Assembly (NCBI GenBank): GCA_001466705.2
Contig: LATX02000174.1
Span: forward strand, 1-64,000
Direction: 5' to 3'
Length of the DNA stretch: 64,000 nt
DNA from: Moniliophthora roreri
Lineage: Eukaryota > Basidiomycota > Agaricomycetes > Agaricales > Marasmiaceae
The position numbers were made by a program, and so were the translations under genes. Below are positions 6,708 to 64,000 of the stretch, piece by piece; position 1 is the first letter of the stretch, and every line of letters begins with the position of its first letter. Below the pieces are notes generated by a model that was not told the origin of the DNA, searched no databases, and saw only the letters and a list, made by a program, of their open reading frames with translations.

Positions 6708-9700
6708 ATGAGTGCGAGCGCGAGCAGTAGCGGAGGAAATGGGGTGAACGGAGGAAATGGAGGGGGAGGGAACGGGGGAACCGGGGGAAGCACCCAGTCC
6801 GCTATGCTGCCTCCGCCAATCCCATACCCGCCTCAGCCGTTTGATATGAGGTATCGCGAAAGACTGTGAGTTTCTTATCCATTCTTTTCCTTTTCATTGC
6901 TTGTTCCGGAGAGATGAGGACAGGTTGGATTGTTGGGTGTGAGGATGACAATTTGAATGTGGGATTCTCGAAATCTGGGTGGCGACCCGAGTCCCTGGGT
7001 ATGGGTCTTCCAGCTCACTCACAAGGTCACTCATCTCTTGGCCTTTTTCTCCCTGGTTTTACGCTGGGATTCACTGACGGTTCCCTCTTCTTATCCCCCC
7101 ATTTTCGCCTTGGACGACGATGACGATGCTTCCACCACTGGATGGGCCGCCTTACCCCATACCATCACATAACCACAGGCAATACGAACTTACGGTGCGG
7201 CAGGAACCAAAACAGGCGAGGATGTGCGGGGTTGGTGGAAAGGGTACGTTCAAGGTTCATGAACATGTGTCAATAGAGGCTGATAGGAATTGAACAGCGG
7301 ACAGGCGGCCTATTGATCCACCGCCCATTGTACAGTTACGGGTTATCGATCCTTGTGCCAATAAACATCAGCAACAACAACAGCAGCAAGGACAGGGAAG
7401 AAGACAGAGTGCATCACCGGAAAGAAGTCGGAGTAGGAGTAGGAGTAGAGAAAGGAATGAGGAAGTTGAAGTTGAAAGAGACCGAGAGGGTAGCAGTACC
7501 CCGACACCTGACGGTGCGTTCGCCAAGATGACCGAGTCATGATGATGGTATTGATATCGATGTAGGCCAACAACTGTACGGCTACGCGCACTCTTCATCG
7601 TATCTTCAAAATCCCTACTACTTTATGTTTGCATCGCTCGCAAAACCAGACGATGACGTCGAGTTGCACTGGCTCAAGGTACCTATTCGTCATACTCTGT
7701 CTCTGTCTCTTGATGCAAGCTGACCTATTCTTAGGACGGTCGTACACGATGTACAACCGGGAGTGTTGTTTCGTCGCTTTACCACCTCAAAGACCCTCAA
7801 CACAATAACGAAGACGCTGGATTCTTTGTCTTTCCGGATCTTAGTGTCAGAACGGAAGGAAGTTACAGGCTGAAGCTGAGTTTGTTTGAGGTCGTTGGGT
7901 GAGTGTTTGTCATTTCTATCGTCATTCGTACGCGTCGGAGCACATTTTTTGTTCTGCTCCTTCAAACCTCGATATAGGGAGTTTACTCCTCGTTTTCACC
8001 GGAGTGGTGTTTACAGAATCGATGTAGCACCCGGCCGCCCCACCTCGAGGCCTTCTAGACATCAGGACCGCATGTCGCTTTTATTGTCATCCTGAGCTTG
8101 ATGTTCAGGAACAAGGTCACTTGCTCCTGCCTTTGTGGAGCACTTCATTCTACCTGTCTCTAGGCCTAGGGCGACACTCTTCGGTCTATGGGCTTAATGC
8201 CCACAATTTCGCGATATCTCTTTCATTTCGCGTCCCCGGAGTGTGGCTCATCACCACGAGTCTACACACCTGCCGTATCGTTCTCGTTCCCATCAAGGCT
8301 TTCATCTGCTTTTTGTTATGATATTGATCACTGCTGCACGGTTCTTTGGATGACTGAACATACTGTCACTTACGACGCGTTATCTCCCAACCTGTCTCTT
8401 ACGTGACAACTAACCACTCGTGTTTTTCTAGTAACACCGTCAGACATTGCAAGTCGATCTTCTCAGCGCCATTCTATGTGTACACGGCCAAAAAGTTCCC
8501 TGGAATGGAAGGTTTGTCCACTCTACCGAAGTGTCGAGGTGTCGATGTTCATCTCTATACGTTCACAGAATCTACCCCATTGTCGTGCTCATTAGCCGAC
8601 CAAGGCATCAAAATTCGCATCAGGAAGGATATTCGTGTTAGGAAACGACCCATGGCCCAGATTCCTGACAACTCACCTTCCAGCTCAAACGCCAACAACA
8701 ACTCGAGTTCCTCTTCAAGCGGAGTTACCGTACCTACCTCACCCTTCACCTTCACCTCCCAAACTCCGAGCCAGGCTCAGGCTCAGGCGCAACCTCAGTC
8801 AAATCAGGGTCAAGGTCAAGGTCAGCCACCAGCTTACGCTCCTTATCCACCACCACCCCAAGCGCAACCCCAACATCAACAACCTTATCAGCCAACACCC
8901 GGATACGGTCCCCCGCCCGGGTACCAACAGCCAACTTATTGGCCACCGCATCCCCAGGCTTATGCTCCTCCACCACCCATACCACCTCCACCTCCTTCAC
9001 AAAATTCAATGATTACAATTACGGCGATGGGCCCTCCGCCGGGAGGTGTTCCTGGAGGAGGACCACTACAGCCTTTGCCGGTTGAGATGCAGCCTCCTGG
9101 TTGGGCGAAGGATAAAGATGGTGATGGGAGTGGTAGTGAATCTGAGGGTAGCAGTAAGAAAGGGAAAAAGGCGGATAAAGACCGTATGGATGTGGACGAG
9201 TCGAGCGCATCCGAGGGTGACGGTGACGATGATTCCGATTATGAGGAGTCAAGGAGTCGGAGTAAGAAGAAGGATGCTAAAGACAAGGGTAAGAAGGACA
9301 AGGATAAGAAGGAGAAGAGAGATAAGAAACGTACGAGGTTGGATTCGTATGGTCCTGCGCCGCCGTTACAGCCGCAACCGCAAGCACCACCTACTTCGGC
9401 GTGGCAGCAAACACCAGGTGGTGTGATACCGCCTCCGCCTGGTGCTACGATGGAATCGGCACCTGCATTGGCTAATGGTGGACGTATACCTCCACCGCCG
9501 GGTGCAACGATCGAGGCGCCTGCGTCAGCTTCCGGCAGTGGTAATAACACACCTACCAGGAACGCAAATGGTGGCCCATCCTCGTCGAATGGCCCGCCTG
9601 TAGGGTATCAGTTTGACGCTCAGGCTCAGGCGACGCCACAACCACCGCCGTCACAACAACAGCCTCAGCAGCAACAACCTGCTCAACCACAACCTCAGCA

Positions 9701-10742
9701 ACCACCTCAACAGCAGCAGCAGTATCCTCCGAACCAGAATCCGAATCCGTATGGACCCCCACCGCCTCTTCAACATCCTCATCAACCTCCGCATCCTGGT
9801 ATGCCGCCTCATCCTCACCAGCCGGGATACGGTTATCCACCGCCGCATCCGCCTACGCCTTGGGGACATCCGCCACATCATCCAGGATACGGGCCACCAC
9901 CGACGCCTTACGCGCCTCCTGGACCTCATTGGGGTGTTCCACCTTCTGCACCTGCATTCGCCGATCCAAATGCACCTCATCCGTACCAGCAGGCGCCTAT
10001 GCCGCCTTACGGAGCATATCCGCCACAACAGATGTATGGGCATGGTGGATACGGTATGCCGCCTCCACCAGGACCGTACTATGGAGGCTACTATGATCCG
10101 AATCAACAGCAACAACCACCTCCCCATCCTCAGCCTCAACAGCAAGGACAAGGACAATACCCGCCAAACCCGAATCATGGTCAAAATCCCGGTGGTGCGT
10201 ACACGCCAAATGAGTATCAGCAGCCTCCACCACAGCAACAACAGCAGTATCCTGGCTATCCACCACCTCAACAACAGATGAGGCCAGGTCCCGCACCGGG
10301 TCCTTGGGGATACCCGAATCCCAATACAACTCCCAACCCAGCGTATAATGCACCGGGTAATGGAGAAGTTTGGGGTACACCTACTGGCGCTGCTGGTGCC
10401 GCTGCTGCTGCGCCGCCGCCTGGCTGGGACACTTCATCTTCTGGTGGATATCAACCGTATGCACCTCCACCTCCGACAACTCAGGTACCCATTTCACAAA
10501 CCTTGTCGAGTACGTCGTCGCAGGATAAGATCCAGCTTGCGCCGTTGCGTGCTACCGGACACGGAGGGATACCGAATATATCGAGTCATGCGCAGAGTGT
10601 CGTTTCGTCCCAAGCGGGTGGTTCGAGACCGCAAGTGATTAGGATTGATTCGAGGAAAGATGATGCCGGTGGGAAAGAAGGTGAGAGGGAGAGAGGCAAG
10701 AAAAATGTATTGAGTATTGGAAGTATCATTTCGTCTGAATAA
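6708..10742 (+). CDS. Velvet-domain transcriptional regulator (VelB-like), 7 exons
   Basis: Exons 6708-6865, 7179-7243, 7298-7513, 7566-7678, 7735-7898, 8432-8511 and 8569-10742 join in frame to 989 aa. The velvet domain covers about residues 54-275: [37 protein letters not shown], then an inserted Q-run and RS-rich segment as in Vel[35 protein letters not shown] and [14 protein letters not shown]. Velvet proteins are nuclear DNA-binding regulators of development and secondary metabolism. The last 700 residues are disordered and rich in P, Q, G and Y, with an acidic/basic stretch ([18 protein letters not shown]) that could be a nuclear signal. The ATG at 6708 starts an S/G-rich leader. Intron 5 (7899-8431) is unusually long at 533 bp; skipping it restores [13 protein letters not shown]. 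No disruption seen, so probably functional. VosA-like is the alternative class. Confidence 0.9.
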
Positions 10743-13547: not shown

Positions 13548-15292
13548 GATACCATGCTGGAAATGAATCAAACATCACGTTGACACAATGTCTAGCCCCC
13601 CCATCTCATCCAGCTTCATTCATTGGTATTGCAGGAACTGTCAATGCTTTGCAACATAGGCGAAATCCCTCCCTTTCCTTGGCATCAAATAACACATCTC
13701 GAGGTCTACAAACTCACTCGTGCTTATATCGTCGAAGTCCTCTGCCAATGCTCTCGTCTAGAGATTTTTGTTGTTCTATATGATGACGGTTTCACAGATG
13801 GGAAGGCACTAGATCTGAACATCAATATTGAACTCTATTCACCTCAAAATTCTCTGGTGACTTTGCATTCCAGCTTCTAACAGCGAATATTGTGACATGT
13901 GCTATCGTCATCTCAGCATACTACTTTTTCTCCCTGAGCTACAAAATCTGAAGATTCCAATCAGCCTATTGTTACGTTTGGATACAACTTTAATCAAGGA
14001 TCTTATCAAGCGTTCACAGTGCCAACTATATTCCTTTGAGATAACCATTGAAAACTGTATGAATGTCACTGTCGAATGTTTACTCCACCTTGTCACCTCA
14101 CTGTACCAGTTTGGTGCTCTGGGGACAAGTTCACACTATATCTTTTTGAATTGATGGAATTGTGGCAACTCATTTCTGAGCTTGTGCATCTCAGTGTCCT
14201 CTTCTTTAAGCACCATATAAATGAGTTGTACCCACCACTTGGTGCAATTCTTGATGCTGGGAAAGCATTGCCAAATCTATGCTCACTGCATGTCAAGACG
14301 TGCAAGGAGGCTATAGATGGAGATTGGGGATTTGGATTCTTACTTTTTTTGTCTGGGATCTCCTTATGAATTAACGCGACACCAATTGCTGAACTCAAGA
14401 TGCATCTTTCTTACTTTGGTTCATTTTGACCAGCAACCCTTTCTGCTATCAGACACTCCTTGAATGGTGTTTTCTGTGTTGAGTCTCACAAGCCGGATTC
14501 ATTTCTGAAGGTAAACATCTTTTCTTTGTTTTATATTGGGCTTATCCAACTCACTATCATACCAGAACATCATTATTGTCAGCAATACCTTGGAAATTGC
14601 TTGAAAATTTCCCAAATCTGACTTTAGATAAGATTCAGGTTAGTCCTTTTTACTTTATGATTACTTGGGCACCACATCTAATGCTACATGGTCTGCAAGA
14701 ATAACTACCTTGACTGGACTGTCTCTGAGATTGCAGAAACAAGAGGGTATTGATTGCTACCGAGATAATGAATTTCGTTTCAAAGAGAGGGCTGAGCAAT
14801 TGTTGAAGCTTGTTCAGATGCATTATATCGTAAACTGCTAGTAGTCATCCCACTTTAAAAGTTCCTGCAGATTCTCTTAATACACTCAATAGCTTACACA
14901 ATTTGATGATAGTTACAGTATTCATCCATGGGATGTCAAGACTTGATATGCAGAACATGATTACACTGGTCCACAATGAACTTGAGTCTTCCTTGACCCC
15001 TACATATATGAGCAACATCTACCTATTCTTTCCCTGCAGTGCTTCATGATTCCCTCAACATGCGTCTCTCGAAACACATGTTTTGAAGGTCTATGAATAG
15101 ACATGTCATGATTCCCTAAGTATTAGTCGCCCTAATGCCATTGCAATGGCTGGAGTCAATGATTTCATTTAGGTTGATTTATTTATGACAAGTCATTGAA
15201 CAAGGATAATGGGGAAAATAAAGATAATACCCTTCATGAGGTGATCTCAACAGACTTGAAGAAAGGCTACACAGTGTCAATCAGAGGACTGA

Positions 15293-16408
15293 TAATTTGT
15301 CTAAGAATAAGACTAGTGGAAAGCTACCCAAAAGATAACCTCCAAAAAGTCTAACTCAGTTTGTTGTGCAAGTGTGGATCGACATAATCAGAGTTACCAC
15401 ACTTAGAATGCCAACAAAACCCTTAGCTAGGTTGATTCTCTCTCTTATGGAAGCAATCTACTTCAAAGTGTTCACCTCCAGAGGAGTATATATGGGTTTT
15501 GAAAAAGAGTTTATATCCAAACACACAAACACACACACAAGAACACAGTGCACAAAGCACAAAACACAAGAGCTACAGTCCCATACAAAGACTCAATAGC
15601 CAATATAGTCTGACCCTATGGAGTTCAAGACTTCTTCAAGATAACTACAGCACACAGTGTACTGGAAAAGGTCCTAGACCAATTTCTACAAAGAGTTCAG
15701 CACAGGCACACCCCTTGCTAATACTCTAAGTGTGTCACAACCTGATACACATACAGGCCACACTCCAAGTGCCCAAGGCTCCTTGGTGTAAAGTTTCTCT
15801 TAGAAAAGCATGACAACACACTCAAGATGTTACTCTTATCTCTTACGACACAAGTTCGTTATCAGATGTCTATCTCTCTGAAGTCACTCAGAACCAATCT
15901 CCAGGGCCTGAAGTGAGGAAGCAAAACTGGAATGGCACACAAATTTATACACCAAACAAACTCTTCATGTATNTTTCTGTTCCAAGTCGTCTTTCTGTTT
16001 TGACGTCTCCTCTAAGTACCTCTGTACTGTTTGACTGCAGATTGCACTTTGCAGATATCATAGAAAGGTAAAGTAGAAATTAAAATCCTCTTGATAGCAC
16101 TTTGAGAGCTTGGTTAACTAGCCAATGTGTTCATTGGGCCATAGTTAGGTTCTCTACAGGTTTTGGGAGTGATCTGTTTTAGATCTGATACATAGATAAG
16201 TCAGGAAGTACAGCTTCGACACCTCTGTATAGTGTATCATATAGCTCTTCATACTTTCCAAGGTACCATAGCTTCTCTAAGGCAATGACTAGCAGAGTGG
16301 GCTCACTCTAGTCCTTATTACCCATTATCTGGTGTCATATTAAAGTGTTCCAATTCAAAAGTAGTGTAAAATGAATAAAAGTGGGTCTTTTCTAGGTTAG
16401 ACATATTA
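15293..16408 (+). repeat. 1.67 kb repeat family, copy A (internal gap)
   Basis: Starts TAATTTGTCTAAG and ends GGTTAGACATATTA. Compared with copy B (19096-20768, inverted) it lacks about 0.65 kb exactly where the single n stands at 15973, so the missing part is probably an assembly gap. Ends TAATTTGTC and, inverted, TAATATGTC form 9 bp inverted termini. No coding capacity is visible. Confidence 0.75.
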
Positions 16409-19095: not shown

Positions 19096-20768
19096 TAATA
19101 TGTTGAACCTAGAAAAGACCCACTTTTATTCATTCTACACTACTTTTGAATTGGAACACTTTAATATGACACAAGAATATAGGTAATAAGGACTAGAGTG
19201 AGCCCAGTCTGCTAGTCATTGCCTTAGAGAAGCTATAGTATCTTGGAAAGTACAAAGAGCTATATGATACACTATACAGAGGTGTTGAAGCTGTACTTTC
19301 TGACTTATCTATGTATCAGATCCAAAATGGATCACTCCTGAAACCTGTAGAGAACCTAACTATGGCCCAATGAATGCATTGGCTAGTTAACCAAGCTCTC
19401 AACAGAGATACTTAGAGAAGACATCAAAACAGAAAGACGACTTAGAACAGGAACAATCACAGAACAATCCTCCTTCAAAGTCAATATATGGATCAAAGTC
19501 AAAGCAGGCGATCTCTTAATAAAGAGTGCACTGGTGGCTAAACAAGACAAGATAAACTAACTAGGTACAAAGTCATCTCGGAAAGAAGGAAATCACTTCT
19601 GAAGGACATCTACTACCTACAGACAGAAACAGTGAGACATACAAAGAATATCTAATGCATAAGAAGTTCTAAATAAGACCGAGCATGCATTGTCAAAGGA
19701 GATAGGAACAGTAACAGTGTGTTCTGACCTTGGAAACTTGGCATCTAGGCTTCTGCTAATGTGCAGATACTAGAAAGGGAAATGCTGTAAAGAGACAGAA
19801 CAGATAGACCCATCTGCTCATAGATACCTGAATTAGAAAAGAAAAAATACAAATTATAGAGTCCAGAATGCCTGGAGACATAGATACCCGTGCAGATATG
19901 GTCAGATACTCTAGTGGCCAGACTCTGTGACATCCAAATATTCCCTCTTTTAGTATCTCAGTCACTCATTTATCATTTCCTGAATTATCAGACATTATTT
20001 ATATTTTTCTGTAGATATATTCCTTGGACCATATATAAGGACAGCTAGATATTCATATATATGCAAGTAATTCTGCCCCCTCTGATTGTAAATACATGAA
20101 GAGTTTGTTTGGTGTATAAATTTGTGTGCCATTCCAGTTTTGCTTCCTCACTTCAGGCCCTGGAGATTGGTCCTGAGTGACTCCAGAGAGATAGAATCTG
20201 ATAAACGAACTTGCATCATAAGGGATAAGAGTAACATCTTGAGTGCGTTATAGCACTTTTCTAAGAGACACTTTACACCAAGAAGGAACCTTGGGCACTT
20301 GGAGTGTGGCCTGTGTTGGGTATCAGGTTGTGACACACTTAGAGTATTAGCAAGGGGTGTGCCTGTGCCAAGCTCTTTGTAGAAATTGGTCTAGAACCTT
20401 TTCCAGTACACTGTGTACTGTAGTTGTCTTAAAGAAGTCTTGAACTCTGTAGGGTCAGACTATATCGACTATTGAGTCTTTGTATGGGACTGTAGCTCTT
20501 GTGTTTGTGCTCTGTGCACCATGTTCTTTGTGGTTTGTGTGTGTGTTTGTGATATAAACCCTTTTAAAACCATATATACTCCTCTGGAGGTGAACAACTT
20601 GAAGTAGATTACTTCAATAAGAGAGAATCAACCTAGCTAAGAGTTTTTTTGGCATTCTAAGTGCGGCAACTCTGATCACGCTGATCCACACTTGCACAAC
20701 AACCTGAGTTAGACTTTTGGAGGTTATCTTTTGGGTAGTTTTCCACTAGTCTTATCTTAGACAAATTA
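19096..20768 (-). repeat. 1.67 kb repeat family, copy B (complete)
   Basis: This is the only copy seen end to end. On the plus strand it runs from TAATATGTTGAACCTAG to CTTAGACAAATTA, the inverse of copies A, C and D. Flanking TA could be a 2 bp target duplication. Alternatively TGTT..GACA could be LTR termini with TA-rich flanks. It contains a TATA-like string and long purine/pyrimidine runs but no open frame above about 70 codons. It abuts the tyrosine recombinase relic. Confidence 0.75.
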
Positions 20769-34985: not shown

Positions 34986-35109
34986 ACTCGTTGCCTCTTT
35001 GGAGGTCGCCTCTTGTCATCACGAGATGTTGGACGCGTCCCAGTTCCATTTGTCGTCAAGTGCAAACTGAACAACTAAACTGCGCATCCCCGTCAGCACG
35101 GCTAGGAAC

Positions 35110-36985
35110 TTTGCTGAGAAGATTTGAGTGTCGTAGAATTAGAGTTAGGAGCTTGGGCCCTCCTATATACTGAGTTGGGACCCATTGGGAAGATGATGGT
35201 GGTAAGGAAGAAAGAAAGAAGCGTAACGTGTGACACCGGGATGGCTTCTTGGGGCCCCACAAGTTGCGACAGCTGCAACACGTGCAATCAACAATCGATG
35301 GGCTACCGAATAACACGTCCAAGTCGCGAAACGTGTGATAGCGTGTAAAGAGGTCTGGACCTGCCAAAAAAAAAATATTAAGCGCCTTGAGCGATAAGAG
35401 ATCTGGATAAGGAAATTGGATCCCATCTAAATCCACCAAAAAGGTTCGACTCACCAGAAAGGAAATATTAGATGACTTGAGCGCTAAAGACTTCCGGTCC
35501 CAGAGGCCAGACACCCACAAGGGGTGGTTACCAGGCAATGTGGGTATGTATTGTCCATGGGTATCAAGAAATACAATGTGTGCTATTGCTACATCTCAAG
35601 AAAGTCCCAAGAAATTGATAAAAGTACATTAACGGCGGCGATTGTTACTATTAGAGCGATCTTTATAGTACTGTCCTAATGCATCTCTAATCTCTGTACC
35701 GACATACAGAACACAAGCATCCGTAGGCAAGAACTTGCATTTGACATTAAAGTCTATGGTACGTCCCTTAATGTCGGCCTCAAACCCATGCAGATATCTG
35801 ACCCCGTCATAGTTTGCACTTGACGACCGGTAGACGACCCGGTTTGCGAATTCACCTCTAAAGATGAAAATGGGATCCACTGTGTTTGAGACAGGGTACA
35901 CCGGTGACACCTCAACGTTATCCGGTAGCGGGTGCTGCTTCTTGTAATGCTCGATAACAGCAGTCTTATCCCTGTCGCAGATAACGAGACGAATGTTCTC
36001 GGGCTTGTTGTTGAAGCGTTTGCCCAAAATTTCACCTTTGATTTTGGCTTTGAACCATAAATCATGGGTGTTCTCTGCCTCGTATAGCCAGCGTTGACTC
36101 GGGTGGAGACTTCGAGTCTGCCATGTAGGTGTTGAAGGCATCGGATGATGACGATTAGAATCATCAGCCGATACCGTCCACGCCGGATCCGGAGTTGAAG
36201 AGCGAGATCGAGCAGACGAAGGACGATGTGAGCGAAGTGGGGGTGTCGTACTGCGAACGGATGGAGGAAGTTTGGCCACCTTTACATGGAAGGTCATGGA
36301 GTGGATGTAATTGCGCTTAGGATGGAATGCGGGATTCAACGGTCGTTCAACCAGGTGGAGAGGTAGTTCCCAGCTGTAGTAGCGAGTCAGTATCAGATAA
36401 AGAATGAGAAGGCAGAGACTTACTGCTCGTCAACGAGGTCTTCATAGTCATACATTTGGCGTTGACCCTGCCTGCCTATAACCTCAGACTCGACGGTGAT
36501 CTGCAATCCACTCTTGGTCTTCTGGCGTATGTGGACATCGTACACCCGAGCAACATCCCCCTTGTTATGACGTCCTTTGGCGTATATAAGGACACGTCTA
36601 TCCTTCCAAGGAATAGTGCCTGTTCGAGCCTTTTTGATCTTGGCTGAAGCTTCTACGTGGTCCATGACGAACACCTGCTGTGGGAGTCGCCGTAGGGCAA
36701 GCTTTTCGTTCCATTCAGATCGAAACTGCTGCCAATCTAGGCGAGTTGTGATCTCGCGAGGGCCCCGAACTGCCGCCTCCATCCACGGTGTTTGATGAAA
36801 AGTTTCGGGCTCGCGTCTGAATGCGTAACCTTGGCTTTTTTCATGTCGAGGAGTCAACCTGAAAGAATTTGCGTGACCAGAGAAGTCGTGATTGACGTTG
36901 TTGTCAGGATGCTTAATGAGGACATTGTCGGTTTCGAAACAGTTGGGAACGATGACAAAGCCTTCAACGCCAGAGACGTGGCGTN
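35110..36985 (-). pseudogene. Spt5-like gene, duplicated C-terminal part ending at a gap
   Basis: Nearly identical to 36999-38874. It contains the last exon (NPAFHPKRNYIHSMTFHV to GQYYKDRSNSNNRRR, stop near 35629) and the preceding exon up to DVA, where a single n at 36985 cuts it. The two copies differ at scattered sites, several of them CpG. The join TGCCGATCCTTGAATGCTGAG after the n also occurs at 47603. It is either a tandem duplication or two haplotypes placed side by side by the assembler. Confidence 0.7.
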
Positions 36986-37516: not shown

Positions 37517-40500
37517 TTAACGGCGGCGATTGTTACTATTAGAGCGATCTTTATAGTACTGTCCTAATGCATCTCTAATCTCTGTACCGACATACAGAAC
37601 ACAAGCATCCGTAGGCAAGAACTTGCATTTGACATTAAAGTCTATGGTACGTCCCTTAATGTCGGCCTCAAACCCATGCAGATATCTGACCCCGTCATAG
37701 TTTGCACTTGACGACCGGTAGACGACCCGGTTTGCGAATTCACCTCTAAAGATGAAAATGGGATCCACTGTGTTTGAGATAGGGTACACCGGTGACACCT
37801 CAACGTTATCCGGTAGCGGGTGCTGCTTCTTGTAATGCTCGATAACAGCAGTCTTATCCCTGTCGCAGATAACGAGACGAATGTTCTCGGGCTTGTTGTT
37901 GAAGCGTTTTCCCAAAATTTCACCTTTGATTTTGGCTTTGAACCATAAATCATGGGTGTTCTCTGCCTCGTATAGCCAGCGTTGACTCGGGTGGAGACTT
38001 CGAGTCTGCCATGTAGGTGTTGAAGGCATCGGATGATGACGATTAGAATCATCAGCCGATACCGTCCACGCCGGATCCGGAGTTGAAGAGCAAGATCGAG
38101 CAGACGAAGGACGATGTGAGCGAAGTGGGGGTGTCGTACTGCGAACGGATGGAGGAAGTTTGGCCACCTTTACATGGAAGGTCATAGAGTGGATGTAATT
38201 GCGCTTAGGATGGAATGCGGGATTCAACGGTCGTTCAACCAGGTGGAGAGGTAGTTCCCAGCTGTAGTAGCGAGTCAGTATCAGATAAAGAATGAGAAGG
38301 CAGAGACTTACTGCTCGTCAACGAGGTCTTCATAGTCATACATTTGGCGTTGACCCTGCCTGCCTATAACCTCAGACTCGACGGTGATCTGCAATCCACT
38401 CTTGGTCTTCTGGCGTATGTGGACATCGTACACCTGAGCAACATCCCCCTTGTTATGACGTCCTTTGGCGTATATAAGGACACGTCTATCCTTCCAAGGA
38501 ATAGTGCCTGATCGAGCCTTTTTGATCTTGGCTGAAGCTTCTACGTGGTCCATGACGAACACCTGCTGTGGGAGTCGCCGTAGAGCAAGCTTTTCGTTCC
38601 ATTCAGATCGAAACTGCTGCCAATCTAGGCGAGTTGTGATCTCGCGAGGGCCCCGAACTGCCGCCTCCATCCACGGTGTTTGATGAAAAGTTTCGGGCTC
38701 GCGTCTGAATGCGTAACCTTGGCTTTTTTCATGTCGAGGAGTCAACCTGAAAGAATTTGCGTGACCAGAGAAGTCGTGATTGACGTTGTTGTCAGGATGC
38801 TTAATGAGGACATTGTCGGTTTCGAAACAGTTGGGAATGATGACAAAGCCTTCAACGCCAGAGACGTGGCGTACAAAGTCACCCGGTAGCCATGACTTGA
38901 TGAGCTTCCACCCGAAACAATGTTCACCCACTCGAGTGGTAAGTGAGTCTAGAGAAGCCGGATCGCAATTATCGGGTCCAGGTTCATAACACTGGATAAC
39001 AGGACCACCAGGGAAGTGAGAGATCACTACACCTTGTTGGCCTGTGGGTGCCATGACCATTTCGCCGATGTCAAACCTCCAGTCCTCGATAGGAGGAAAG
39101 TTGCCGATGACCGCCGGATGGCTGCACTTGAGAAGTATGCGACCTTCCCGAGAGTTCGGCAATCGTCCGAGTGGTTTGATCATGGACTTTTCCACGATCT
39201 GCACCCTCATCCCATGCTGGAAGCCACCGTCAGGATAGACAGTGAGCCTCCTGCGCTTCTTCCCATACTGGGTGGGATCCCAAGCCTAAAACTGTGGAAG
39301 GCCAGCGGCTCTGACATAGTCGCCCAACTTTCAATCCGAGACACCCTTGAGTCGGAAGCAACCGACGCTTAGCCCGTACAGCGTCCGTGCTTACGCTCCT
39401 TATTTCAGGACAGTGACTGCATGACCATCAACCTTCAGAACAAGGGCAGGGTCATCGTAGTACAACGGCTTTCCGGGCTTTGGTAGCTCGGGTTCATAGC
39501 TCTGGCCTCTAGTGGGCTTGCCAGAAGCTTCAGGCTCGGTTTGCGGGTGGATGTCACCTATATCGCCCATGGGCACGTCCTCCTCGGTTAAACCCTGCCG
39601 TGTAGAAGGGTTATCGAGTCTTGTCTTCTTCCTGGGTGGCCCAGATGCTTCCTCCTCGCTATTCGGCTCTTTCTTCGGCTTTTCGATCGGACCAAGCCTA
39701 ACCCAGACACCTGCCTTTAGAACAGGCTTCTTTGGGTCTGGCTGGCGTTTCTCCACTCCGCCGGTGATGGTTTTAGCGATGCTAGATGCCATCGAAAGCG
39801 CACGAAGGATATCGAGAGGATCAGAGAGAACCGTCATATGGACGCCGTTGATGCCACCAGTTCGGGTACGACGAGTGTACATGCAACCACGAAGTATGCT
39901 AGCTGCACGAGGGCTATCCTGGGTCTGTATGTAGACATAACCAGAACCGCAAGATCCGGGTCGAGTGAGGGAAAAGATGTTGTCTTCGGGGTGTATCTTC
40001 TGGTAGCCTACAATGAAGTTTATGACGTCCTGTTCGCGGTAAGGCTAGATAACATTAGATGGTGAAAGGATACCGAGTAGGAATGGACATACCTTGCACT
40101 TGATCGACCAAACTTCTTGCGAACGATACCTCTTGACGTTGGGATCGTCCTCATCCAGCTCGAGTGCTACCCCTCCAACGGCAGTGTTTCCCTGATCCAA
40201 AACCAGCCCAGATCCTCCAACAGCAACGGAATCATCACCAGCAGATTCATCTTGTGGCTCTGAAAAGAGCGAATCCTGGTCTGAGAATAGCGAGTCATGA
40301 TCGTCGGCGTCCAGAGCTCTATTGAGAGCCTGATAGTTGACGGGCCTCCCTACGTCGTCGTCGTCGTCATTTATGAACCCATCTGCTGTAGAACAAGCAT
40401 ACATTAGCTTGACAATGATAGCTGAATGTTGAAATTTCCATACCGCCTTCATCATCCTCAGAATCGTATCCCCCTCTATCGACGGCAGCCTCCAGATCCA

Positions 40501-41062: not shown

Positions 41063-42380
41063 TGTGGGACGTATCGGTGAAGTTCGTATGTTCTCATTTT
41101 AGTCCTGAATATATCCTCATGGGTGTTCAGCATGCAGATGACGCGTCAATGGATATCCTAGATCCAAACACGATAGAAGAACCTGATGCGCCTATTAATC
41201 CTCTTCGAAAGACCAACACGTGAACTTCACGATTGCCATCTCGTTATCGTGATTTCAGTCTGGCTACGGGTTATTCATTTTTAGCAGACCCGATTCATCA
41301 TCAGCCAACTCCTTCTCCCGAGCCAATGGAGGACATGCAAGAGGTTGAATCTGGATCTCCGAAAGCATCACAGGAATCCAACCCAATGGAGCAGGATCAT
41401 CCCAACGAGAACGACTATTTCATCAGTCAGCCAAACGAATTCGGTATCTATCGTATCCATCGGTATCACAGACCATCTCGAGAACCCAAATATGGAATCG
41501 ATGATCTTGCCGATTCGCGCAACTTTGACGTTGCACCTTCCTTTTCGACGCAGATTAATACTCATGTGTATCGTATATGTTTAATAATATCGTGTATACT
41601 CGCCTTGATATTCGCGTGTGGTGTGATTGGTCCGAAANTGTGGGACGTATCGGTGAAGTTCGTATGTTCTCATTTTAGTCCTGAATATATCCTCATGGGT
41701 GTTCAGCATGCAGATGACGCGTCAATGGATATCCTAGATCCAAACACGATAGAAGAACCTGATGCGCCTATTAATCCTCTTCGAAAGACCAACACGCGAA
41801 CTTCACGATTGCCATCTCGTTATCGTGATTTCAGTCTGGCTACGGGTTATTCATTTTTAGCAGACCCGATTCATCATCAGCCAACTCCTTCTCCCGAGCC
41901 AATGGAGGACATGCAAGAGGTTGAATCTGGATCTCCGAAAGCATCACAGGAATCCAACCCAATGGAGCAGGATCATCCCAACGAGAACGACTATTTCATC
42001 AGTCAGCCAAACGAATTCGGTATCTATCATATCCATCGGTATCACAGACCATCTCGAGAACCTGAATATGGAATCGATGATCTTGCCGATTCGCGCAACT
42101 TTGATGTTGCACCTTCCTTTTCGAGGTCTCCGGAAGCAATATACGGCAAAGTGACACCCGAAGGTGATCCATCTTCTAGCCCTAGCTCGCATAGGCCAAG
42201 TCATGTCATTGGATCATCACATGAGGGAGACACCAACAGTCTACAGGAGTCTCAGGATCTCGAACATTATCCTTCAGTCGAAGTACCCTCCGACGGTGAA
42301 TCACACATAAGCGAGAATGAGGTTGCTGTTGGTCCCTTCCAGAACAGCACGATATTCCACTTAATGGACTGGGCGATAAT
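41063..42380 (+). pseudogene. Plavaka transposase N-terminal region, two rearranged partial copies
   Basis: Both copies encode LPSRYRDFSLATGYSFLADP, SQPNEFGIYRIHRYHRPSR and PEYGIDDLADSRNF. The second adds RSPEAIYGKVTPEGD and VGPFQNSTIFHLMDWA, the usual Plavaka N-terminal order. Copy 1 (41063-41637) jumps at DVAPSFS straight into the 3' end of the element (CGCAGATTAATACTCATG) and ends at the n at 41638. Copy 2 jumps at DWA into the 3' flank (ATAATTTATAATACACTC). A stop interrupts copy 1 just before LPSRYRD (CACGTGA versus CACGCGA in copy 2). Both are internally deleted, non-autonomous versions. Confidence 0.8.
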
Positions 42381-47534: not shown

Positions 47535-48342
47535 GACGCGTCCCAGTTCCATTTGTCGCGTTCACGTTTGACTTGTTGATTTGACGCGTAGGGGCAGTCG
47601 TGCCGATCCTTGAATGCTGAGAAGATTTGAGTGTCGTAGAATTAGAGTTAGGAGCTTGGGCCCTCCTATATACTGAGTTGGGACCCATTGGGAAGATGAT
47701 GGTGGTAAGGAAGAAAGAAAGAAGCGTAACGTGTGACACCGGGATGGCTTCTTGGGGCCCCACAAGTTGCGACAGCTGCAACACGTGCAATCAACAATCG
47801 ATGGGCTACCGAATAACACGTCCAAGTCGCGAAACGTGTGATAGCGTGTAAAGAGGTCTGGACCTGCCAAAAAAAAAATATTAAGCGCCTTGAGCGATAA
47901 GAGATCTGGATAAGGAAATTGGATCCCATCTAAATCCACCAAAAAGGTTCGACTCACCAGAAAGGAAATATTAGATGACTTGAGCGCTAAAGACTTCCGG
48001 TCCCAGAGGCCAGACACCCACAAGGGGTGGTTACCAGGCAATGTGGGTATGTATTGTCCATGGGTATCAAGAAATACAATGTGTGCTATTGCTACATCTC
48101 AAGAAAGTCCCAAGAAATTGATAAAAGTACATTAACGGCGGCGATTGTTACTATTAGAGCGATCTTTATAGTACTGTCCTAATGCATCTCTAATCTCTGT
48201 ACCGACATACAGAACACAAGCATCCGTAGGCAAGAACTTGCATTTGACATTAAAGTCTATGGTACGTCCCTTAATGTCGGCCTCAAACCCATGCAGATAT
48301 CTGACCCCGTCATAGTACTGTGTTTGAGACAGGGTACACCGG
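47535..48342 (-). pseudogene. Spt5-like/DUF6698 flank, third partial copy ending in a chimeric junction
   Basis: After the n at 47528 comes the DUF6698 5' flank (ATGTTGGACGCGTCCCAGTT), then the Spt5-like 3' part identical to 35110-35815. At 48317 it skips about 60 bases of the gene, continues for about 25 bases (CTGTGTTTGAGACAGGG) and at 48342 switches to the plus-strand Plavaka sequence (ACGGTGAATCACACATAAGC). Two cargo genes that should be kilobases apart are thus fused. Confidence 0.7.
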
Positions 48343-49178: not shown

Positions 49179-49179
49179 N

Positions 49180-50345
49180 TCTTTCCTGCGTTTGAACCAC
49201 TGGTTGTACTCTTATGGTCAAGACCCTGCAATAGAGGTGGGAAGTTTCGAAACGTTAATGCCAAGTATTTTGACTGACTGTAATTTAGAGCTTTGAAACA
49301 AAGTTGCAAAGACATCTTCTTGAACGTCTTCTCACTCTAGCACAGTTCGAGTCATTGACGGACAGGGATCTCTCTCGTCTGATCATCGTGAATGACAGAA
49401 TTTTCACTCACAAACGTATGCGATTCAACCACACCTCATACGACATGCGTAAAATACAGGACTTGGTAAATATTCGGCGACACCCAGACGTTATGATTTT
49501 GGCTAGTGAGGAAAGCGCTTGAGAGCAAGGTCATCCTTATCTCTATGGACGGGTGATAGGTATATTTCACCTGCGTGTCCGTAACCTCACATCTTTTTCT
49601 ACCGATCATAAGCCGACGAAGATGCACGTTCTTTGGGTCCGTTGGTACCTCATGGTTGTTCTAATGCTTACCCCGACCCTTTTCTTTGGTCTGCCTCAGC
49701 TGCGTTTCGTGCCATCCTCTGACCCTAACGCTTTTGGTTTTGTGGATCCGGAATCGGTTATACGGGGAGCACACTTGATTCCAGCTTTCAGCGTGGGCGT
49801 TACCGATGAATTACTACCTGAGGATTCCATTGCACGCGTATACGAAAGTTTTCAGGATACGGACTATGTAATCGAGGAAAGGGACTGGAATTACTACAAT
49901 GTGAACATGTAGGTTTTTTATGACTGTTAGCGTTTCCATACTCAATTTTAATTCCTAGATTTGTCGACCGTGACATGTTCATGAGGTACCGAGGTGGAGG
50001 GATTGGTCATTCTACCAGAGATGCCACGCATTTCATGGAGGAAGATGCTCGTCACAGTGATAAGCCTTTGCCCAAGTATAATTCAGATACTGGAGAGTTG
50101 CTTTCGGATGATGAGGAAATGGGTGATGATGGAAGCGAAGGTGATGGTAGTGAAGATGATGCTGATGAAATCGTGTCCCAGTCCTCGGTTGAATCACATC
50201 GAAGTGTTCACGCTGAACCTGAGGATTATGATGACACTGATCCAGAATCGGACGACGCAGATTAATACTCATGTGTATCGTATATGTTTAATAATATCGT
50301 GTATACTCGCCTTGATATTCGCGTGTGGTGTGATTGGTCCGAAAC
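49180..50345 (+). pseudogene. Plavaka transposase C-terminus, copy 1 with anomalous 40 bp block
   Basis: Encodes SFLRLNHWLYSYGQDPAIE, then LQRHLLERLLTLAQFESLTD, RDLSRLIIVNDRIFTHKRM and KMHVLWVRW. Bases 49649-49688 are the non-reversed complement of the sister copy. The text then resumes LPQLRFVPSSDPNAFGFVD, PESVIRGAHLIPAFSVG and FVDRDMFMRYRGGGIGHSTR, with an acidic tail and a stop at 50265. The block FGFVDP..VIRG..LIPAF..FVDRDMFMRY is diagnostic of Plavaka. A TGA also replaces CAA or CGA after LASEESA. Confidence 0.85.
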
Positions 50346-50414
50346 GACCTTAAACTATTAGGGATTTGAATCTTGAACGGTGAGTTACAACTTCATAATT
50401 TATAATACACTCAN

Positions 50415-52040
50415 AACGTCGTCGTGCGCAAATGGAGAAGAGTGGGAACAGCAACGGGAAGGACGATGGTGGATTGCGACCAAAAGGGTTCAACTTGTCT
50501 ACGTTTAAGATGCACGCACTTGGGCACCATGTAAGCAATACCCGCTACTACGGCGTGCCAAGCGGACATGATTCAAAACCGGTAAGTGACTGAATCCATT
50601 ACATGTAGCCTACTCGACTGATTATGATGTTAGTTTGAGCGCGAACATGTTCGTTACAAAAGCTTCTACCCCAACACGAACAAGAATCGATTCGTAGCCC
50701 AAATCGCAAGGCAAGGGCGCAATCAGCGAATGCTTCAACGCTTTAACCTCCGTCAGAAGTATTCGACGGCGAAAAAGGGCAAGAAAAGAACCTATACTGT
50801 CCCCGATTTCGAGCCATTGCCTAGAGATGACCCAGAGAAACGTTATCAAATGGGCCACTCAGAACGCTCTTTCCTGCGTTTGAACCACTGGTTGTACTCT
50901 TATGGTCAAGACCCTGCAATAGAGGTGGGAAGTTTCGAAACGTTAATGCCAAGTATTTTGACTGACTGTAATTTAGGGCTTTGAAACAAAGTTGCAAAGA
51001 CATCTTCTTGAACATCTTCTCACTCCAGTGCAGTTCAAGTCATTGACGGACAGGGATCTCTCTCGTCTGATTATCGTGAATGACAGAATTTTCACTCACA
51101 AACGTATGCGATTCAATCACACCTCATATGACATGTGTAAAATACAGGACTCAGTAAATATTCAGCGACACCCAGACGTTATGATTTTGGCTAGTGAGGA
51201 AAGCACTCAAGAGCAAGGTCATCCTTATCTCTATGGACAGGTGATAGGTATATTTCACCTATGTGTCCGTAACCTCACATCTTTTTCTACCGATTATAAG
51301 CCGATGAAGATGCATGTTCTTTGGGTCCGTTAGTATGAGTACCAACAAGATTATGAATGGGGCTGGGAAAAGAAACGTCTGCCTCAGCTGCGTTTCGTGC
51401 CATCCTCTGACCCTAACGCTTTTGGTTTTGTGGATCCAGAATCGGTTATACGGGGAGCACACTTGATTCCAGCTTTCAGCGTGGGCGTTACCGATGAATT
51501 ACTACCTGAGGATTCCATTGCACGCGTATACGAAAGTTTTCAGGATACGGACTATGTAATCGAGGAAAGGGACTGGAATTACTACAATGTGAACATGTAG
51601 GTTTTTTATGACTGTTAGCGTTTCCATACTCAATTTTAATTCCTAGATTTGTCGACCGTGACATGTTCATGAGGTACCGAGGTGGAGGGATCGGTCATTC
51701 TACCAGGGATGCCACGCGTTTCATGGAGGAAGATGCTCGTCACGGTGATAAGCCTTTGCCCAAGTATAATTCAGATACCGGAGAGTTGCTTTCGGATGAT
51801 GAGGAAATGGGTGACGATGGAAGCGAAGGTGATGGTAGTGAAGATGATGCTGATGAAATCGTGTCCCAGTCCTCGGTTGAATCACATCGAAGTGTTCACG
51901 CTGAACCTGAGGATTATGATGACACTGATCCAGAATCGGACGACGCAGATTAATACTCATGTGTATCGTATATGTTTAATAATATCGTGTATACTCGCCT
52001 TGATATTCGCGTGTGGTGTGATTGGTCCGAAACGACCTTA
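50415..52040 (+). pseudogene. Plavaka transposase C-terminal half, copy 2
   Basis: Begins after an n with RRRAQMEKSGNSNG, FNLSTFKMHALGHHVSNTR and, past an intron, FEREHVRYKSFYPNTNKNRF, then SERSFLRLNHWLYSYGQ. It continues collinearly with copy 1 through VRxYEYQQDYEWGWEKKRL (TAG where Trp is expected) to FVDRDMFMRYRGGGIGHSTR and the acidic tail, with a stop at 51953. Apart from that stop and CpG transitions it is the better preserved copy. The GIY-YIG gene follows on the same strand. Confidence 0.85.
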
Positions 52041-60985: not shown

Positions 60986-60986
60986 N

Positions 60987-63013: not shown

Positions 63014-63184
63014 TTTCTGAGATGTTAACATGATAATAAATATCTGAAATAAGTGTCAGGTGGCTCAAATGAGCTTTAAAGAAAGTCAAAGTTGGGTTGT
63101 CACATGAGAATGGACACAGCTAGAGTCACAATATGTCATATTGATTTGGCCTGGTATCTTGCTGGCTTACATAATAAACTATGG

Positions 63185-64000
63185 TAATTTGTCCAAGATA
63201 AGACTAGTGGAAAACTACCCAAAAGATAACCTTCAAAAAGTCTAACTCAGGTTGTTGTGCAAGTGTGGATTGTCATGATCAGAGTTGCCACACTTAGAAT
63301 GCCAACAAAACTCTTAGCTTGGTTGATTCTCTCTTATTGAAGTAATCTACTTCAAAGTGTTCACCTCCAGAGGAGTATATATGGTTTTAAAAGGGTTTAT
63401 ATCACAAACACACACATAAAACACAAAGAACACAGTGCACAAAGCACAAACACAAGAGCTACAGTCCCATACAAAGACTCAATAGCTGATATAGCCTGAC
63501 CCTACAGAGTTCAAGACTTCCTTAAGACAACTACAGCACACAATGTACTGGAAAATGTCCTAGACCAATTTCTACAAAGAGCTCAGCACAGGCACACCCC
63601 TTGCTAAGACTCTAAGTGTGTCACAACCTGATACCCAACACAGGCCACACTCCAAGTGCCCAAGGCTCCTTCTTGGTGTAAAGTGTCTCTTAGAAAAGTG
63701 CTACAACACACTTAAGATGTTATTCTTAGTCTCTTATGACACAAGTTCATTATCAGATTCTATCTCTCTGGAGTCACTCAGGACCAATCTCCAGGGCCTG
63801 AAGTGAGGAAGCAAAACTGGAATGGCACACAAATTTATACACCAAACAAACTCTTCATGTATTCACAATCAGAGGGGGCAGAGTTACTTGTTTTTCTATG
63901 AATATCTAGCTGTCCTTATATACAGTCCAAGGAATATATCTACAGAAAAATATAAATAATGTCCAATAATTCAGGAAATGATAAATGAGTGACTGAGATA
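63185..64000 (+). repeat. 1.67 kb repeat family, copy C (runs off the window)
   Basis: Starts TAATTTGTCCAAGATAAG and follows copy B (inverted) to the window end, including the ATTCACAATCAGAGGGGGCA stretch that copy A lacks. This confirms that copy A has a gap at 15973. Confidence 0.8.

Follow-up and report, generated by a model that had tools for sequence, protein, structure and literature searches.

Rearrangements of double-stranded DNA yield copies of a sequence in direct or reverse-complement orientation, and we know of none that yields a complement kept in unreversed order. Tchurikov is said to have proposed early on that parallel-complementary sequences occur naturally, and to our knowledge no cellular polymerase copies in parallel orientation. 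In vitro, parallel duplexes of natural sequence have been claimed, as has a Taq reaction with a parallel primer (PMC4304224). On the side of data processing, a published gap filler, GapFiller, is described in the passages of its paper cited here as extending from both edges of a gap with majority voting (PMC3446322). Here we describe short blocks, embedded in repeats of a single genome assembly, whose letters are the complement of those in sister copies without being reversed. We conclude that these blocks very probably represent a recurrent error of strand handling made during assembly, and not a property of the living DNA.

Complement blocks in the window

The window is the whole stretch of 64,000 nucleotides analysed, C76:1-64000 of a 59.4-Mb genome in 154 contigs. 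The first-pass annotation had reported one complement block in it, which proved to be real; the window holds three, those at 35057-35111 and 39287-39406 having been missed. The blocks and the sequences to which they are compared are as follows.

49649..49688, + strand: block 1, 40 bases, complement of the sister copies without reversal
51337..51376, + strand: normal counterpart of block 1 in copy 2, the coding version with one CpG-type change
49180..50413, + strand: assembly piece carrying copy 1 and block 1, bounded by single-N joins (N at 49179 and 50414)
35057..35111, + strand: block 2, 55 bases within a repeat copy, unreversed complement of 47560-47614 at 55/55
47560..47614, + strand: normal counterpart of block 2, normally oriented in another window copy (55 bases)
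39287..39406, + strand: block 3, 120 bases, non-reversed complement, 120/120 against copies L017 (C77) and L041 (C66)

The coordinates and letters first described for block 1 and copy 2 hold, as does their relationship: base by base, 49649-49688 matches the complement of 51337-51376 at 39 of 40 positions, as against 0/40 for the direct reading of copy 2, 7/40 for its reverse and 8/40 for its reverse complement. The sole mismatch had been ascribed to a CpG change in copy 2, and a copy on C93 (L002) bears this out, reading TACGAA at that site and giving 40/40 against block 1. Also as described, the five bases preceding the block are in normal orientation and agree save for two transitions. Block 1 replaces a conserved coding stretch without introducing a stop; copy 2 had been said to hold the coding version, and relatives in the protein collection carry that stretch, e.g. 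WYQYDEDFHWGWERKRL in P0001, where copy 1 reads WYLMVVLMLTPTLFFG. Across the 59.4 Mb searched, the block-1 40-mer with up to 3 mismatches allowed matches only itself, while as a control the same 40-mer read backwards has 5 matches, 2 forward and 3 reverse, which are to be expected since the backward string reverse-complements the normal copies. With 40 ordered bases here and matches of 55/55 and 120/120 in the same window, chance origin is excluded.

Several further observations concern these two copies. The repeat match of the copy 1 piece stops exactly at the single-N joins 49179 and 50414. The copy 1 frame has 110 relatives in the protein collection (best identity 60 percent), and for the Plavaka label given to copies 1 and 2 a Pfam search, which covered C-terminal pieces from copy 1 and L002, gave no family hit. 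Neither C-terminal frame is intact, because each copy carries a stop codon that is absent from the C93 copy (TGA at 49520-49522 in copy 1, TAG at 51331-51333 in copy 2). A truncated copy-1 element on C121 (L006 1465-1500) is broken within the stretch of block 1, four bases in from the left end.

Block 2 was detected when the window was set against its unreversed complement. In addition to its window counterpart, it complements 11 places on other contigs at 55/55 and one further place at 53/55; among these copies that at 35057 stands apart, 47560-47614 and the copies on other contigs sharing the opposite sense. Its flanks are normal, usually for 103 bases to the left and for up to 1.88 kb to the right. 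Block 3 was found once repeat copies from other contigs were added to the comparison; it matches a distant C97 copy (L038) at 85 percent, and it interrupts a reading frame on the minus strand, which in the C66 copy L041 stays open for 507 aa. In all three blocks the flanks on both sides continue in normal orientation.

When equal-length replaced stretches in the sequences sampled were compared, the plain complement was the best of 48 transforms for each of the three window blocks, and among the outside equal-length replaced stretches listed, none was best explained by it. For inversion, template switching or gene conversion of the ordinary kind, it can be said that repeats lie close together in both orientations in the window, but such events give direct or reverse-complement copies. 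The original remark that an inversion gives a reverse complement, and not what is seen here, is upheld by the 8/40 fit noted above, and together with the ranking of the transforms this refutes such events from the letters alone and leaves them virtually no chance of being the explanation.

The remaining differences among repeat copies are of an ordinary kind. Copy differences in the repeat alignments of the loci sampled are mainly C-T and A-G (44,515, against 9,926 transversions, counted over redundant pairs), a predominance like that left when silenced repeats decay at CpG sites. There is no surplus of complement-type swaps (AT 2749 and CG 1776 vs AC 2864 and GT 2537, redundant pairs), and inside these alignments no run of at least 4 complement mismatches was found save for a 5-base offset at one edge of a C18 block. 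Scattered low-quality letters were rejected as a cause on both of these counts. Byte-level corruption, such as a bitwise NOT of 2-bit packed bases, was likewise rejected: block 1 is 8-base aligned at both ends, and blocks 2 and 3 are not.

Apart from the blocks, the window has ten single-N joins (15973, 36985, 40996, 41638, 44660, 47272, 47528, 49179, 50414 and 60986), several of them exactly at repeat ends. The segments 41063-41548 and 41639-42124 are 486-base copies, 99 percent identical, with the N at 41638 between them; they may be contig ends left unmerged. The segment 60984-64000, which starts beside the N at 60986, recurs at C76:64678-67694 (L042 678-3694) as a 3017-base direct duplication at 99.97 percent identity, either real or an assembly duplicate. 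The open frame at 8358-10739, of 794 aa, matches the velvet factor family PF11754 at E 8.2e-08 and above the family's cut-off; no relative of this frame was found at E 1e-30 among 7980 candidates scored.

Recurrence on other contigs

The first-pass annotation had proposed comparing repeat copies across the genome for further blocks. That search, carried out in part, yielded eight more complement-only blocks.

C23:292234-292283: 50 bases
C23:320622-320658: 37 bases
C18:34458-34508: 51 bases
C18:33582-33626: 45 bases
C129:20491-20531: 41 bases
C22:1406-1436: 31 bases
C93:56531-56584: 54 bases (55 in the copies compared)
C120:69848-69883: 36 bases

The total is thus at least 11 blocks of 31-120 bases on seven contigs, each set in a repeat that runs on normally to either side. 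Without exception the 11 are complement-only and lie on the same strand as the host repeat (the eight outside blocks having been checked against their flanks). Because there are 11 blocks on seven contigs, a recurrent process is at work rather than a single odd locus.

The outside blocks emerged from queries made of complemented repeat sequence. A 2738-base complement query covering three families, with the three window blocks as controls, returned only those three genome-wide. A complement query that included an older and numerous family, f1, returned 11 rows, 5 of them block-1 controls and 6 of them new (two on C23, two on C18, one each on C129 and C22), and a full 1757-base copy, complemented and used as the query, gave 6 rows, 4 known and 2 new (C93 and C120). 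Since this last query missed the blocks on C129 and C22, the block searches give lower bounds. The complement of 35112-36984 had no match in the genome, a query run without a positive control. Detection requires a second copy and is confined to repeats; for blocks in unique DNA a 5-mer Markov score was uninformative, the known blocks scoring -4.6, -3.6 and +1.3. The family f1 is a numerous unclassified repeat with window copies at 15290-15972, 19954-20768 and 63182-64000 and a full copy of about 1757 bases at L042 2876-4632; it has 854 candidate places, 40 of them scored.

These outside blocks bear directly on the idea that the window alone was altered after assembly, by local corruption or deliberate change. 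This idea was favoured at first, when no block was known other than the three in the window: a first sample gave 3 blocks in 24,774 testable window bases and 0 in 110,630 testable repeat bases outside, where about 13 would be expected at the window rate (share-based probability 0.006). The genome-wide query of the block families had returned the window blocks alone, and each of these blocks has a length divisible by 5 (40, 55 or 120). It was dropped once the eight outside blocks were found, which are of the same class, lie on six other contigs and have lengths of 31, 36, 37, 41, 45, 50, 51 and 54; as a full account it is refuted, and we now consider it exceedingly improbable.

Order of events and origin of the blocks

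How the blocks arose can be approached through their differences from other copies. With the complementing undone, 13 sites in the 11 blocks depart from the majority of other copies, and at every one (13/13) the departing allele occurs in other, normal copies; 8 of the 13 differences are of CpG type in the normal frame, compared with 1 in the complement frame. Private bases number 0/560 in the un-complemented blocks vs 30/1981 in the flanks (within 100 bases), a contrast with p values of 0.0012 overall, 0.0055 for f1 alone and 0.14 without the C18 pair, to be read with the bias of block detection towards mismatch-free blocks. This test points to no change after complementing and is suggestive rather than a proof. 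Adjoining block 2, base 35056 shows a C-to-T change relative to all copies compared, which is of CpG type only with the neighbouring base still the normal G. Because private differences are lacking, the alleles are shared and the CpG type appears in the normal frame, the sequence most likely aged in normal orientation and was complemented last. The content of the blocks looks pooled from the repeat family.

The C18 pair is instructive in its own right. Two neighbouring copies were struck at one family position, with no N between them, and the ends of the two blocks differ by 1 and 5 bases; inheritance of these blocks through duplication of the repeat was rejected on account of the differing ends. 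Among the 11 blocks, none was found with identical ends in two copies.

Synthesis of parallel-strand DNA in vivo would have a 3-prime end pair in parallel with a strand of another repeat copy and extend along it, leaving in-order complements of 31-120 bases too young to have mutated. Such synthesis would yield exactly the non-reversed complement class, and the blocks do have, elsewhere in the genome, a template whose complement they carry in the same direction; copying from another family member would also account for the absence of private differences. Against it, neither inheritance nor later mutation of a block was seen, the count of 0/560 being what would be expected if no block is old and the ends of the C18 pair being different, although the sample is small. 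On balance, we judge parallel synthesis very improbable.

The first-pass annotation had left the choice between a data or assembly error and an unknown process. The former is favoured by 11 complement-only blocks on seven contigs with no difference that need have arisen after complementing. Under the preferred reading, an assembly error, stretches of 31-120 bases inside repeats would have been supplied from the opposite strand, their letters being reversed without complementing (or the converse), such that length and order were kept and A was swapped with T, and C with G. Most likely these stretches were gap fills, put together from repeat reads that had been pooled, or else lower-case parts of contigs whose orientation was later changed; a case-sensitive reverse-complement routine would be one concrete candidate cause. 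Software is presumably the agent, and the step responsible is likewise put forward as our reading of these patterns. A software error would explain why there is a single class of change that leaves length intact and recurs, why the blocks lack later mutations and look pooled in content, and how the C18 pair could arise. The assembly is scaffolded with gaps, each of the 71 N runs counted in the loci sampled being a single N. Weighing against this reading, block density is uneven, with 3 blocks in the testable window bases and none in the first outside sample. In the sequence examined the blocks are not beside remaining gaps, the nearest N lying 277 bases off and the others at least 430, and the sequence analysed is all upper case, the letter case needed by the lower-case idea being absent from it.

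Implications and comparison with known systems

If the blocks are artefacts, the assembly contains short wrong-strand stretches in which length is kept and no gap or frameshift is needed, and ordinary checks can miss them for these reasons. Their rate is about one block per 190 kb or more often, based on eight blocks in f1 (40 scored of 854 candidate places, none longer than about 1.76 kb). By extrapolation, if the rest of the 59.4 Mb is alike, there would be some 300 blocks, genes included, appearing as odd local changes in proteins. Other assemblies could be checked cheaply by comparing their repeat copies with the complement of those copies. As an artefact the blocks make a useful quality test of low biological interest; were they real, they would be strong evidence of parallel-strand copying in a living genome.

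Each of the known systems shares some features with the blocks. DNA inversion likewise makes a local, equal-length change with intact flanks, but it reverses the order of bases, which the blocks keep. Parallel complementary DNA and its synthesis (PMC4304224, which cites Tchurikov 1992 and Veitia and Ottolenghi 2000) share with the blocks a complement in the same 5-prime to 3-prime direction, and also a similar length, 40-base parallel duplexes being cited in that paper. Unlike the blocks, which are embedded in repeat copies that are identical elsewhere and which bear no mark of age, those systems are in vitro or proposed. As for errors of gap filling and contig orientation, complemented but unreversed fills were not found described in the literature searched, mostly titles and the openings of abstracts, and the cited passages of the GapFiller paper make no mention of wrong-strand fills (PMC3446322). 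In common with such errors, the blocks are short replaced stretches inside the repeats of a gapped scaffold, and their content appears pooled from the repeat family, as filling by majority vote would give (PMC3446322).
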